From Seonamhaeicola aphaedonensis (GTDB lineage Bacteria; Bacteroidota; Bacteroidia; Flavobacteriales; Flavobacteriaceae): a stretch of 64,000 nucleotides of DNA. The notes under the pieces are model-generated. The model saw only the letters and a list, made by a program, of their open reading frames with translations, was not told where the DNA came from and did no database searches. The DNA lies in assembly GCF_003386195.1 (NCBI RefSeq), contig NZ_QRDX01000003.1, positions 310,001 to 374,000 on the forward strand. Reading direction: 5' to 3'. The position numbers were made by a program, and so were the translations under genes. This document shows, piece after piece, positions 5,512-9,861 of the stretch. Each line of letters opens with the position of its first letter. Position 1 is the first letter of the stretch.

Positions 5512-6525
5512 TTAGGTGTTTTTAAAATTCTCTATTAAAACCTTTAAACGCTCAACTGTTTCCCAATCTGAATTATCCCCCGAGTTATAACTAAACCCTT
5601 TTTCTACTTTTTTAGGGTTATAGGTTTTTATAAAATTCTCTACATCCCAAACAGGACAAGGAGGGACAATAGCATAGTAATTTCCCATATCATAAGTATA
5701 AAATGAATCTGAAGCAGAAATCATTTCTTCATGTAATTTTTCACCTGGCCGTATGCCTACAATGGGTTTTTCACAATCTAAACAAATAGCATTGGCAACG
5801 TCCATTATTTTGTATGAAGGGAGTTTGGGAACAAAAATTTCGCCTCCCCACGCCTTTTCTAAGGCGTTTAAAACCATTTTGACGCCATCTAATAACGAAA
5901 TATTGAACCTCGTCATATTAGGATCTGTGATTGGTAATACGCCATCAATAGCCTTCTTTTTTAAAAAGAATGGCACTACAGAACCGTTAGAGCCCATAAT
6001 GTTACCATAACGAACAATCGAAAATATTGTATTTGGTTGCTCTTTAATTACATTATTCGCAGCAATAAAAAGCTTATCAGAAGCCAGCTTCGTAGCCCCA
6101 TACAAGCTCACTGGAGAACAGGCTTTATCTGTCGATAATGCCACTACACGCTTTACATTATTCTTCAAGCAAGCCTCTATCACATTTTGAGCACCTCCAA
6201 TATTGGTTTTAATACATTCTGTAGGGTTTTTTTCAGCCGTATGAACATCCTTCATTGCAGCTGTATGAATCACATAATCTACACCTTCGGTGACCTGCAA
6301 CAACCTCTCCTTGTCTCTAACATCTCCAATGATATAATCAATTTGCGAATATTTTTCCAAAGGAAATTCTTGAGCCATTAAAGCATGTTTCCTTTCATCT
6401 CTTGAAAAAACACAAACCCGTTTAACTTCTGGGGTTGTATCAAGAATGTAGGATGTTAAGGCCTTTCCTAAAGTTCCAGTGCCTCCCGTTATTAAAATGG
6501 TCTTGTCTTTATACTCCAATTTCAT
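5512..6525 (-). CDS. UDP-N-acetylglucosamine 4,6-dehydratase (inverting), PseB/FlaA1 type
   Basis: A 337-residue soluble SDR with GGTGTLG (14-20), the STDKA signature (131-135) and YGATK (Y142/K146). This TDK-YxxxK layout is typical of PseB/WbjB/CapE enzymes, which dehydrate and 5-epimerise UDP-GlcNAc to a 4-keto-6-deoxy-L-arabino-hexulose. That compound is a precursor of pseudaminic acid or of N-acetyl-L-fucosamine/quinovosamine-type sugars. No pseudaminic acid synthase is seen in the window. The 294-bp gap before it holds a mobile repeat (6604-6757), so it may be transcribed separately from the aminotransferase gene. Confidence 0.85.
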   Translation of the reverse strand: MKLEYKDKTILITGGTGTLGKALTSYILDTTPEVKRVCVFSRDERKHALMAQEFPLEKYSQIDYIIGDVRDKERLLQVTEGVDYVIHTAAMKDVHTAEKNPTECIKTNIGGAQNVIEACLKNNVKRVVALSTDKACSPVSLYGATKLASDKLFIAANNVIKEQPNTIFSIVRYGNIMGSNGSVVPFFLKKKAIDGVLPITDPNMTRFNISLLDGVKMVLNALEKAWGGEIFVPKLPSYKIMDVANAICLDCEKPIVGIRPGEKLHEEMISASDSFYTYDMGNYYAIVPPCPVWDVENFIKTYNPKKVEKGFSYNSGDNSDWETVERLKVLIENFKNT

Positions 6526-6819
6526 TGCGTTTTTTAAATTACCCTAAACTAGCTAAGTTAATGTAAAAATCCTTTGTATAATTTGTTACTGCAAAATTCT
6601 GAGTATTTAATGTGAACAATGGATAAGGAATTTATGTTAGTTTGACTGCCAAATCTGTGATTTGGTGTATTTGAACATCGCTCTGCGGAGCTATCGAAAA
6701 CCAATAAATTTCACTCGAAGTAACACTCTAACTCTTAAACATTATTCACATTATTTAGCAAATCTTACTTATCAAAAGAAAGGGACATTTGAACAAGAGA
6801 TTCTGCACTACATTTTATT
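6526..6819. other. Gap between aminotransferase and dehydratase genes, holding a mobile repeat
   Basis: No coding sequence is seen. The middle (6604-6757) is a MITE-like element described separately. On either side the bases are AT-rich without a clear terminator. Confidence 0.6.
6604..6757. mobile_element. MITE-like element, copy A
   Basis: The element has 12-bp imperfect terminal inverted repeats, ATGTGAACAATG at 6610-6621 and CATTATTCACAT at 6740-6751 (one mismatch). It is flanked by the 6-bp direct repeat TATTTA at 6604-6609 and 6752-6757. The interior aligns by eye with copy B (7992-8191) in the same orientation, sharing GGATAAGGAATTTATG, CCAAATCTG, GAGCTATCGAAAACC and TTTCACTCGAAGT. 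It is about 40 bp shorter than copy B because one inner segment is absent. There is no open reading frame, so any movement would need a transposase supplied elsewhere. Confidence 0.75.
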
Positions 6820-7968
6820 TTATTCTGAATGACATTCGTCTAAATATGTTTTAACAACTTCCTTTACTATTTCTTTATCTTTTTTAGTTAAATTTGACCC
6901 CGAAGGTAGACATATTCCCTTTTCAAAAATGGATGCTGCAACACAACCTCCATAAAACGGGTACTCATTAAATATAGGCTGTAAATACAATGGTTTCCAA
7001 ATGGGTTTTGATTCAATAGCATGCTCTTTTAAAACCTTTAACAAATCCATTCCATTTTTACCCTTTTCATTAGACAAAAACTGAATACAGGTCAACCAAT
7101 GATTTGAATGAAAATTTAATGATGGTTCCGAAAAAACTTGAATGAAACGATACGGTTTAAACAATTCCTGATAGAACCTATGATTCTCCCGTCTCTTTCC
7201 CATATAAGAAGATAACGCCTGCATTTGACCTCTTCCTATGCCCGCTGCAATATTACTCATTCTATAGTTATACCCTACTTCACTATGTTGATAAAACAAG
7301 GCTTTATCTTTAGCCTGTGTTGCTAAATAAATAGCCTTCTCTTTCTGTGCTTTTGTTTTGGTAATTAACGCCCCACCTCCAGATGTTGTTATGATTTTAT
7401 TTCCATTAAAGGATATTATTCCAAAATCACCAAAGGTGCCACACTTCTGTCCTTTGTATTCAGCACCTAACGCTTCGGCAGCATCTTCAATTAAAGGGAT
7501 ATTATACTTTTTGGAGATCGCTAATATGTCATCCATTTTAGCAGGCATCCCAAAAATGTGTACTACTATGATGGCTTTTGGTTTTTTGCCCTTTGCTATC
7601 CGATCTAGAATTGCTTCTTCTAAAAGAACTGGATCTATATTCCAAGTCTCTTTTTCGCTATCTACAAAAATAGGGGTCGCCCCTTGATATAATATAGGAA
7701 AGGCAGATGCCGCAAAGGTTAAACTTTGACAAATAACCTGATCACCTTTTTTTACACCGGCTAATATTAATGCTAAATGAATGGCTGCTGTTCCTGAAGA
7801 TAACGCCGTTACATGAACTTCTTGCCCTAAATAGTGTTCTAAATCTTGTTCAAAAAAATTAATATTATCGCCTACAGGCGCCACCCAGTTGGTATCTATT
7901 GCCTCCTGAATGTACTTAAGTTCCTTACCACTCATGTGTGGCGGTGATAATTTGATTTTAAAATTCAT
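6820..7968 (-). CDS. PLP-dependent aminotransferase, PglE/DegT type
   Basis: A 382-residue sugar aminotransferase resembling PglE, which aminates UDP-4-keto-6-deoxy-GlcNAc in bacillosamine synthesis. It starts with the PglE-like LSPPHMSGKELKYI and has EDAAEALG (161-168), the PLP lysine in SFNGNKIITTSGGG (K191) and a closing GICLPSG segment. The retaining 4,6-dehydratase (PglF type), acetyltransferase and phosphoglycosyltransferase that usually accompany PglE are not in the window; the only dehydratase here is the inverting PseB type. Direct copies of the same mobile repeat lie on both sides, so the gene sits in a potentially movable or rearranged unit. A TATCTTTA element about 24 bp before the ATG may be its promoter. 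Confidence 0.87.
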   Translation of the reverse strand: MNFKIKLSPPHMSGKELKYIQEAIDTNWVAPVGDNINFFEQDLEHYLGQEVHVTALSSGTAAIHLALILAGVKKGDQVICQSLTFAASAFPILYQGATPIFVDSEKETWNIDPVLLEEAILDRIAKGKKPKAIIVVHIFGMPAKMDDILAISKKYNIPLIEDAAEALGAEYKGQKCGTFGDFGIISFNGNKIITTSGGGALITKTKAQKEKAIYLATQAKDKALFYQHSEVGYNYRMSNIAAGIGRGQMQALSSYMGKRRENHRFYQELFKPYRFIQVFSEPSLNFHSNHWLTCIQFLSNEKGKNGMDLLKVLKEHAIESKPIWKPLYLQPIFNEYPFYGGCVAASIFEKGICLPSGSNLTKKDKEIVKEVVKTYLDECHSE

Positions 7969-7991
7969 TATTTAATTTTATGCTTGTTTGC

Positions 7992-8191
7992 TAAAGATAC
8001 GTGAATAATGGATAAGGAATTTATGTCAGTTTGAGTGCCAAATCTGCGATTTGGTGTACTTCGACTTCGCTCAGCAGAGCTATCGAAAACCAATAAATTC
8101 CTGTTCGAAATAAGCTTCTCGATACAAAATTTTTTAAAAAATTTCACTCGAAGTGACACTCAAACTCTTAAACATTATTCACGTTAAAGAT
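7992..8191. mobile_element. MITE-like element, copy B, with target-site duplication
   Basis: The element has perfect 12-bp terminal inverted repeats, ACGTGAATAATG at 7999-8010 and CATTATTCACGT at 8173-8184. It is bounded by an exact 7-bp direct repeat, TAAAGAT, at 7992-7998 and 8185-8191. An inner inverted pair, AGTTTGAGTG (8028-8037) and CACTCAAACT (8157-8166), would let the whole unit fold into a long hairpin. It carries no coding capacity. It lies 24 bp upstream of the aminotransferase ATG. Terminal repeats, target duplication and a second copy at 6604-6757 together support a transposed non-autonomous element. Confidence 0.85.
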
Positions 8192-8288
8192 ATAAAAAGA
8201 CGCTTTTAAACCTTATTTTTTATAAATCTGAAATAGATAAAAAAAAGTACTTCCAACAAAAAGATTTATCGTCGCTCATGCTTCGCTC

Positions 8289-8308
8289 CCTGCCTGCCGG
8301 CAGGCAGG
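8289..8308. repeat. 20-bp perfect GC-rich palindrome after the dehydrogenase stop
   Basis: A perfect palindrome, CCTGCCTGCC followed by its reverse complement, lies 14 bp beyond the stop of the minus-strand dehydrogenase gene. It is far more GC-rich than its surroundings. Around it are GTCATTTCAACA-like and GAGCGAAGCATGAGCG-like segments that resemble flavobacterial interspersed repeats. It could act as a transcription terminator or mRNA-stabilising hairpin, but there is no clean T-run. Confidence 0.65.
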
Positions 8309-8322
8309 TGTTGAAATGACAT

Positions 8323-9591
8323 TTATAATCTGGCTGATACAATGTCTCTTGGTAAAATACTCTTGACATCGTAAATAACACAATCTTTGTTTTCTTTAAA
8401 TTTGCCATAGTCAATAGACTTAAACGCGTCATGCCCTACTGCTAACACCACAGCATCATAAGTATAGTCTATTTCCTTTATCAACTCTAAATTGTATTCT
8501 TTCTTCACTTCAAGGTGTAAAGCATGAGGGTCATAAACATCAATAGCTGCTCCAAAACCTTCAAGTTCTCTTACAACATCAATAACTCTAGAATTTCTTA
8601 TATCGGGGCAATTTTCTTTAAATGTTATCCCTAAAACTAAAATTTTGGCGCCTTTAATGATGCTCCCTTTTTCTACTAATAATTTTATAACCTTGTTAGC
8701 TACGTGAACTCCCATATTATCGTTAACACGCCTACCTGATAAAATAACATCGGGATGGTATCCCAAGCTTTCTGCTTTGTGGGTTAAGTAATATGGGTCT
8801 ACACCTATACAATGCCCGCCAACCAATCCCGGGCGAAAGGGCAAAAAGTTCCATTTGGTTCCTGCTGCTTCTAAAACATCCAAGGTATCTATATGTAGTC
8901 TATCAAATATCAGTGCTAACTCATTCATTAAAGAAATATTTAAATCTCTTTGTATGTTTTCAATGATTTTACCTGCTTCGGCTACCTTCATATTGGGTGC
9001 CTTATGAGTCCCTACAGTAACTATTGTTTTATATAAATTATCAACAACTTCGGCTATTTCTGGTGTACTACCTGAAGTGATTTTTACAATATTATGGACT
9101 TTCCTAATCGAATCTCCAGGGTTAATCCTCTCGGGTGAGTAGCCACAATAAAAATCTTTGTTAAACTTTAATCCGCTTGAACTTTCTAATTGGGGCACAC
9201 AAACCTCCTCTGTACAGCCTGGATACACCGTAGATTCGTAGATGACCATATCTCCTTTTGATAAACAAGCACCAACCGTTTGGCTTGCCTGAATTAAAAA
9301 TGATAAATCAGGTCTGTTAAATTCATCTATTGGGGTTGGTACAGTAACGATATAGGTATTTGCATCTTTTATATGTTCTTTACTGGAAGAAAACCTAATA
9401 GACGTCGCTTCATAAAAGTCTGATGCGGTTACTTCTTTGGTATGGTCTACACCTTCATTAAGTTCTTTTACTCTATTTTTATTGACATCATACCCCACAA
9501 CATCAAATCCTTTTTTTGAAAATTCAATACCTAAAGGCAACCCAACATAACCAAGCCCTATAATAGCTATTTTAAAATTTTTAACTTCCAT
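8323..9591 (-). CDS. wbpO: UDP-N-acetylhexosamine 6-dehydrogenase, WbpO/TviB type
   Basis: A 422-residue UDP-sugar dehydrogenase that oxidises C6 of a UDP-N-acetylhexosamine to the uronic acid with two NAD. It has GLGYVG (12-17), VPTPID (84-89), YESTVYPG (118-125) and the catalytic cysteine in GGHCIGVDPYY (C261). The whole sequence closely follows TviB (Vi antigen) and WbpO rather than UDP-glucose dehydrogenases, so UDP-GlcNAcA or UDP-GalNAcA is the likely product. The partner C4-epimerase (TviC/WbpP) is not in the window. Repeats flank it on both sides. Confidence 0.9.
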   Translation of the reverse strand: MEVKNFKIAIIGLGYVGLPLGIEFSKKGFDVVGYDVNKNRVKELNEGVDHTKEVTASDFYEATSIRFSSSKEHIKDANTYIVTVPTPIDEFNRPDLSFLIQASQTVGACLSKGDMVIYESTVYPGCTEEVCVPQLESSSGLKFNKDFYCGYSPERINPGDSIRKVHNIVKITSGSTPEIAEVVDNLYKTIVTVGTHKAPNMKVAEAGKIIENIQRDLNISLMNELALIFDRLHIDTLDVLEAAGTKWNFLPFRPGLVGGHCIGVDPYYLTHKAESLGYHPDVILSGRRVNDNMGVHVANKVIKLLVEKGSIIKGAKILVLGITFKENCPDIRNSRVIDVVRELEGFGAAIDVYDPHALHLEVKKEYNLELIKEIDYTYDAVVLAVGHDAFKSIDYGKFKENKDCVIYDVKSILPRDIVSARL

Positions 9592-9861
9592 ACGTTTTAA
9601 ATGTAACTGAATTTAAATAATACCTGTTATGGATTTTGAGGCAAAAAAACGAAATTAATGTCAGTTCGAGTGATTTTGAGTTATAGAAAACAAAATATAT
9701 TTTGTTTGAAGATACAAGCGAAGCTTAAAAATCGTATCGAGAACTTTTTATCTTACAAAATTCCTAATTCTCGATACAAATTTCACTCATTTCAATCGTG
9801 AAACCCACTCGAATTGACAGAATTTAATCAAAATGCAAACAGGTTTAAGTAATATAACCCC
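9592..9861. other. Gap between rfbD and dehydrogenase gene, holding a third repeat element
   Basis: No gene is seen. Most of the gap is the inverted-repeat-bounded element at 9613-9853. Confidence 0.6.
9613..9853. mobile_element. MITE-like element, third and more diverged
   Basis: Outer inverted repeats are ACCTGTT at 9622-9628 and AACAGGT at 9838-9844, continued inward by ATTTTGA/TCAAAAT. An inner pair is GTCAGTTCGAGTG (9660-9672) and CACTCGAATTGAC (9806-9818) with one mismatch. Flanks are TTAAATAAT (9613-9621) and TTAAGTAAT (9845-9853), a 9-bp near-duplication. The inner arms resemble those of the elements at 6604 and 7992, but the termini differ, so this may be a related family or an older insertion. 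It is non-coding. Confidence 0.6.

Follow-up and report, generated by a model that had tools for sequence, protein, structure and literature searches.

The start of an aminotransferase gene in a surface-polysaccharide operon of Seonamhaeicola aphaedonensis is preceded by 186 bp lying between two copies of TAAAGAT. Is this stretch a mobile element, what could have moved it, and what did its arrival do to the promoter-like sequence in front of the gene? We addressed these questions in a 64-kb window, the whole stretch of DNA analysed (GCF_003386195.1, contig NZ_QRDX01000003.1, positions 310,001 to 374,000, forward strand), in the genome that it comes from (3.5 Mb, 41 contigs), and in other genomes. 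Our preferred reading, to which we give a probability of about 0.92, is that this stretch (copy A) and a second one nearby (copy B) are IS982-derived MITEs that were moved in trans, that copy A landed on an ancestral promoter-like box, and that both are probably stranded now. The features, in window positions, are as follows.

5512 to 6525, minus strand: PseB-type UDP-N-acetylglucosamine 4,6-dehydratase, downstream gene (TIGR03589, 450.2 bits, cut-off 407.75)
6604 to 6609, no strand: left target-site duplication TATTTA of copy B
6610 to 6751, plus strand: copy B, 142 bp, ends ATGTGAACAATG ... CATTATTCACAT, without 44 bp of interior (copy A 8100 to 8143)
6752 to 6757, no strand: right target-site duplication TATTTA of copy B
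6820 to 7968, minus strand: aminotransferase gene between the copies (best NCBIfam model TIGR04181, LegC family aminotransferase, 383.7 bits, below its cut-off of 420)
7992 to 7998, no strand: left target-site duplication TAAAGAT of copy A, single in the empty site of genome G382
7999 to 8184, plus strand: copy A, 186-bp IS982-derived MITE, ends ACGTGAATAATGGATAAGG ... CTTAAACATTATTCACGT (from inverted ends, repeats, and relatives)
8115 to 8158, minus strand: REP-like unit inside copy A, TGTCACTTCGAGTG ... TATCGAGAAG on the minus strand, a repeat also found alone elsewhere in the genome
8185 to 8191, no strand: right target-site duplication TAAAGAT of copy A, giving with base 8192 the ancestral TATCTTTA box on the minus strand
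8323 to 9591, minus strand: nucleotide sugar dehydrogenase, upstream gene (TIGR03026, 402.6 bits, cut-off 189.8)

For the dehydrogenase gene, the TviB model scores higher but stays under its own cut-off. Just past the end of that gene, in the same gap as copy A, there is also a perfect 20-bp palindrome, CCTGCCTGCCGGCAGGCAGG (8289 to 8308), which is GC-rich within an AT-rich region.

Anatomy of the element upstream of the aminotransferase gene

The site reads TAAAGAT (7992 to 7998), ACGTGAATAATG (7999 to 8010) ... CATTATTCACGT (8173 to 8184), TAAAGAT (8185 to 8191). Its 12-bp inverted ends are perfect, and ungapped extension takes them to 18 nt at 89%. The inner arms (8028 to 8040 and 8154 to 8166) pair over 13 nt at 92%. 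All three features that the original prediction described at 7992 to 8191 (12-bp terminal inverted repeats, an exact 7-bp TAAAGAT duplication, and inner inverted arms) are present. An 8-bp duplication (TAAAGATA) is an alternative reading, on the assumption that the first A of the element has been lost. Left flanks end in TA before ACGTG in 18 of 22 cases, a count that includes the window and loosely matched pairs; the window's own flank ends in AT. Copy A contains no transposase-like frame, and the only open reading frame of at least 60 aa that overlaps it encodes 63 aa on the minus strand (7968 to 8159).

Copy A is the only perfect 12-bp inverted pair in the window (40 to 1,200 bp apart) with an abutting exact direct repeat of 6 to 10 bp. 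At least one such inverted pair with its direct repeat was also held by 5 of 200 second-order Markov windows. Therefore, the anatomy taken alone, with a chance frequency of about 2.5%, is suggestive and not decisive. The reading as a mobile element is decided instead by a second copy, by relatives with the same ends and direct repeats, and by an empty site.

A second copy lies on the other side of the gene

A search of the genome with the element gave 30 matches at E ≤ 10. Copy B was the only other whole-length match, in two pieces; the rest were short pieces, and no third full copy was found in the 3.5 Mb at this threshold. The further copy that a transposed unit should have is therefore there, 1.4 kb from copy A, in the same orientation and on the opposite side of the aminotransferase gene. 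The original prediction had placed the element at the 5' side of this gene. That is correct for copy A, but it is not the whole story, given the sister copy at the 3' side.

Over 138 aligned bases, copies A and B are 91% identical. The 44 bp that copy B lacks are part of a palindrome whose right half it still has, so we read their absence as a deletion in this copy. In addition, the two copies differ by an identical C-to-T difference at position 2 of both inverted ends of copy B, which are AT and not AC. We read these ends as mutated AC; two parallel changes at a CpG could have produced them, or AT could be an end variant.

Two copies in the same orientation around one gene, with no further full copy in the genome, might be the ends of a composite transposon that brought the aminotransferase gene into the locus. 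However, the direct repeats agree on the two sides of each copy, whereas the outer flanks of the pair differ (TATTTA on the left, TAAAGAT on the right), which largely refutes such a transposon. Also, genome G382, in which these three genes follow in the same order, has nothing inserted at the copy A site and no exact 18-bp end anywhere. We rejected the composite transposon on its non-matching outer flanks and consider it very improbable. For the same reason, we read copies A and B as two separate insertions.

Among seven genomes of the genus, this one included, four had a match to the element at E ≤ 0.001, and outside S. aphaedonensis these were short pieces with no full copy. Plasmid and phage collections gave no match, and neither did Rfam on positions 6400 to 8450 at E up to 1. 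No empty site was found for copy B at the loci of G382, G168, G790, and G224, to which its flanks align no better than E 0.08. The gaps between the aminotransferase and PseB genes of G382 and G168 contain sequence other than the copy B flanks.

Copy A sits on a conserved promoter-like box

Genome G382, from another genus, has the same gene order as the window (dehydrogenase 78%, aminotransferase 73%, and PseB 74%). Upstream of its aminotransferase gene it reads ...TTTTCCTATCTTTA, 23 nt, ATG, with a single TATCTTTA and a single TAAAGAT(A). The window reads ...CTTTTTATATCTTTA, the element, ATCTTTA, 23 nt, ATG. G382 therefore shows the copy A site unoccupied: the sequence that is duplicated in the window stands there once, equally far from the ATG. 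The original prediction had proposed to look for such a site, with one TAAAGAT, in a close strain. Genus orthologues gave none, and the one that we found is in another genus.

We then read 36 aminotransferase orthologues for TATCTTT(A/G) within 95 bases of the ATG. Six of these are at least 65% identical, and one box is present in four of the six: G382, G168, G224, and G790, where it starts 31, 40, 33, and 34 nt before the ATG, respectively. G265 and G040, also at least 65% identical, have no such box within 95 bases. Overall, the box was seen in 5 of the 36 orthologues (the fifth, L148, at 46 nt), and its background is 210 in 20,000 random 95-base stretches of the window. Strict upstream synteny exists only in G382. 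In G168 the dehydrogenase gene is about 2.1 kb off, and it was not found within the flanks covered at the other orthologue loci.

The −7 consensus of Bacteroidota promoters is TAnnTTTG. Therefore, the TATCTTTA box is probably a conserved internal promoter of the operon. It is also older than the element, because it is found in relatives and the sequence of the far flank is still TATATCTTTA; the box is ancestral, and the insertion duplicated it and did not create it. The far side keeps the original box with its upstream sequence. On the near side, the box is rebuilt by the last base of the element, without the original upstream part. The original prediction held that the end base completes a promoter-like element before the ATG. 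This is literally true, but the box existed beforehand, so it was rebuilt and not newly made. Promoter and terminator scans gave nothing above chance: 9 sites looked like promoters (mean of shuffles 7.8) and 2 like terminators (mean of shuffles 1.3). We also considered a general preference of these elements for −7 boxes and found no support for it, in that their other direct repeats do not read TAnnTTT.

An IS982-family element that touches −7/−33 promoter motifs before a gene in a Bacteroidota genome has a parallel in Bacteroides fragilis. According to passages of a review of the family, IS1187 gave both −7 and −33 motifs to a promoterless cfiA gene (PMC7335449). IS1187 supplied both motifs, whereas the −7-like box in the window is ancestral and was duplicated. 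By eye, we saw no well-spaced −33 motif inside the window element.

The end sequence is present in two phyla

The 19-mer ACGTGAATAATGGATAAGG occurs in 40 stretches of an 84,980-species collection. Carriers are Saprospiraceae MAGs, Snuella sedimenti, three Sinomicrobium species, and several Chloroflexi, including Herpetosiphon. Many of the Saprospiraceae matches are no more than about 50 bases from a contig end, a position typical of repeats, which break assemblies. The opposite end varies: read inwards, some stretches have AATGGATAAG, and the rest have AATG(T/C)TTAAG, AATGGTTA, or a different variant. A literature search with the 10-base core GTGAATAATG gave no IS-element titles among the matches listed.

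We tested 18 inverted pairs that have at most one mismatch per end and for which 12 bases of left flank could be read. In 12 of the 18, an exact direct repeat of 5 to 7 bp abuts the ends, compared to 10 of 306 cross-paired flanks, and the other 6 have no exact direct repeat of at least 5 bp. (With a looser cut, the repeat is present in 12 of 22 pairs.) All 12 repeats begin with TA, and 9 end with it.

Copies A and B therefore have the properties of MITEs. Both are short (186 and 142 bp, below about 300 bp), with inverted ends and no transposase gene. There is more than one copy, two in this genome, besides the stretches elsewhere that carry the 19-bp end. Direct repeats flank both copies, and copy A alone has an empty site in G382.

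The ends bound IS982-family transposases

A relative that encodes a transposase between the same ends was found in a Chloroflexi MAG (locus L042). Both ends are present in this 974-bp element, and between them is encoded a protein of 292 aa, with 260.2 bits against the NCBIfam IS982 transposase model NF033520 (cut-off 130) and a match to Pfam DDE_Tnp_1_3. By eye, the flanking repeat of the element matches at only 6 of 7 positions. The claim that the unit had transposed and was not just an intergenic palindrome is thus upheld by the second copy, the empty site, and this relative. Shorter remnants exist as well. In the Flavobacteriaceae genome G131, the same left end is followed by a truncated IS982 transposase (L078/L111, 195.3 bits). 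Internally deleted elements have an IS982 fragment between such ends in the genome of the Sinomicrobium locus L071 (L106, 108.7 bits) and in a Chloroflexi MAG (L052/L107, 60.3 bits), both below the cut-off.

Because such ends bound an element that encodes an IS982-family transposase in the Chloroflexi MAG, we assign copies A and B, on sequence criteria, to IS982-derived MITEs. Passages of the IS982 review give AC ends, inverted repeats with 11 to 32 identical bp, direct repeats of 2 to 10 bp when present, and a DDE transposase of about 290 aa, and they state that the transposition mechanism is unknown (PMC7335449). Copy A has AC at both ends, and copy B has AT. The lengths of the inverted repeats also agree with the family, as do those of the direct repeats, which are 7 and 6 bp in the window. 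The DDE transposase of about 290 aa is represented by L042, whereas the window copies encode none. The published consensus AC(N)6T(N)5TT summarises the positions that are best conserved among 69 elements, of which 57 begin with AC (PMC7335449); the window ends have the AC but depart from it at position 9, where they have no T.

A tree of 18 IS982 proteins (fragment L107 was left out as too short) grouped two Bacteroidota proteins with these ends together (support 95/93). The L042 protein did not group with the Bacteroidota proteins that have its ends, in a region of the tree without resolution, and the S. aphaedonensis IS982 proteins fell in a distant group. These ends are firmly linked to IS982, but not firmly to a single transposase clade.

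The IS982 elements of this genome have other ends

Two IS982 matches in this genome exceed the cut-off, L095 with one stop and L098 with none; a third, L099, is partial and below it. L095 and L098 have the ends ACCCGTTGTGCA and are 29% and 25% identical to the L042 protein over aligned stretches of 125 and 150 aa. In the vicinity of L099, neither end type was found within two mismatches. A resident IS982 element as the mobiliser is disfavoured, since its ends differ completely. We found no transposase with ACGTGAATAATG ends in this genome, which suggests that copies A and B are now probably stranded in it.

We also searched 395 Bacteroidota genomes with the L042 protein. Ten matched at E ≤ 1e-40, with 16 loci, of which 12 were inspected for ends (all except L126 and L130 to L132). 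Seven had readable AC(C/G)TGA-type ends other than ACGTGAATAATG (ACCTGAGTTCGA and similar), one was the L111 locus again, and at four no ends could be read. In the Bacteroidota sampled (397 family genomes by exact end and 395 phylum genomes by protein), we found no intact element that combines these ends with a full transposase.

In the mechanism that we propose, the element would have been moved in trans by a transposase from an IS982 subgroup whose ends are ACGTGAATAATG. The insertions would have gone into TA-rich sites and duplicated 5 to 7 bp (here TAAAGAT and TATTTA), and copy A would have hit the conserved TATCTTTA promoter-like box before the aminotransferase gene. A REP-like palindrome resident elsewhere in the genome would have been carried between the IS982 ends. 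Since the far side keeps an intact box and the near side has a repeat of it, a transcript begun upstream would cross a long hairpin. Any effect of copy A on expression is a prediction of this mechanism.

Origin of the two copies

The nearest aminotransferases among the 397 family genomes are those of G382 (73%) and G168 (72%). The protein is thus closer to those of other genera (72 to 73%) than to those of its own genus (52 to 63%), as expected for an exchanged polysaccharide locus. G168 is Snuella sedimenti, which has five exact 18-bp ends (G382 has none). Among the loci compared, only L046, L051, and L072, all from this genome, share the window's continuation GAATTTATGTCAG. The identification of G168 is based on the proteins of locus L082, which are identical to those of L046.

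Both copies might have arrived together with a polysaccharide segment from a MITE-rich relative and not by hopping within the genome. Such an origin, which is compatible with our preferred reading, would fit two copies in 3.5 Mb that are only 1.4 kb apart, the affinities of the aminotransferase, and the Snuella ends and their continuation. However, the G168 aminotransferase locus has no element at this site, and a donor that carries the elements in place was not found. We consider joint arrival a serious possibility, at somewhat less than even odds.

Relation to known IS982-derived elements

In the literature, the only case of IS982-derived MITEs that we found is that of Cardinium, where passages of the report derive MITECca01 and MITECca02 from ISCca4, an IS982-family element (PMC9769881). 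With ISfinder outside the scope of that search, the exact end may already have a name. In its main text, the IS982 review does not contain the word MITE (PMC7335449). At the level of its published description, MITECca01 resembles the window element. It is about 240 bp long, from a Bacteroidota endosymbiont, and mostly intergenic, with IS982-type ends and no transposase gene (PMC9769881). Its authors think that it depends on the parental IS. It has 169 copies with intact parents in the same genome (PMC9769881), whereas the two copies in the window have diverged, and our searches gave no parent whose ends match theirs.

IS982-derived MITEs are therefore already documented, and the window element is a further member of an ordinary kind. 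What it adds is that short Flavobacteriaceae repeats can be tied to a named transposase family and that a promoter-like box in a surface-polysaccharide operon can be compared before and after an insertion. Two points may interest specialists: one end sequence recurs in two phyla around interiors that change, and copy A came down on a promoter-like box that is conserved. The finding is useful for annotation, for the spread of elements without a transposase, and for their effect on operon expression, and it leaves the general picture of mobile DNA unchanged.

A REP-like palindrome between the ends

The core of the REP-like unit, TGTCANTTCGAGTG, occurs 13 times in the genome (copy A's included) and its reversed-pattern control 0 times. 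By eye, the other REP-like copies inspected stand without IS982-type ends. These observations raise the alternative that the palindrome is itself the mobile unit, moved by a RAYT or similar protein, with the IS982-like ends incidental. In a REP/RAYT-type element, the repeated palindrome itself is inserted, without target duplication. Here the interior unit is repeated, but it is the whole element that has direct repeats, at its IS982-type ends; in the 12 of 18 pairs with such repeats, they abut these ends and not the REP unit. Furthermore, Saprospiraceae and Chloroflexi elements with the same ends start with quite different, unrelated interiors, and the Saprospiraceae loci look free of such a palindrome within their outer 45 bases. 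We regard the palindrome as mobile unit as highly unlikely and retain the IS982-derived MITE, with the palindrome as its cargo.

On the minus strand, the coding direction of the operon, copy A is predicted to fold into a hairpin of −63.4 kcal/mol (z −7.8) and copy B into one of −37.9 kcal/mol (z −4.2). A hairpin is expected from inverted ends, so these values are no evidence of function.

The Snuella sedimenti copies have interiors that are similar but rearranged. At locus L074 (2363 to 2521), the segment between the GGAATTTAT arms is, by eye, inverted relative to L046, L051, and the window copies. Tentatively, one IS982 end pair might be a reusable shell, an 18- to 19-bp end that is found from Chloroflexota to Bacteroidota and encloses unrelated, lineage-specific interiors, namely REP-like palindromes in Flavobacteriaceae and other sequences in Saprospiraceae and Chloroflexi. 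We consider this idea less likely than not. If true, IS982 shells would take up, move, and reshuffle host repeats and leave hairpins in operons, here on a −7 box.

REP-like repeats are also present in other settings. In the next intergenic gap upstream (9659 to 9819), the window has another REP-like inverted pair, TGTCAGTTCGAGTG ... CACTCGAATTGACA, with no IS982-type ends by eye. Near position 241000 of contig C4 of this genome, REP-like TGTCAGTTCGAGTG ... TATCGAGAAC lie on both sides of a GIY-YIG gene (L004, 1440 to 1860, and L005, 1440 to 1550). The gene between them scores 55.7 bits against Pfam GIY-YIG, and this pairing of a repeat with a nuclease possibly resembles the REP/RAYT association.
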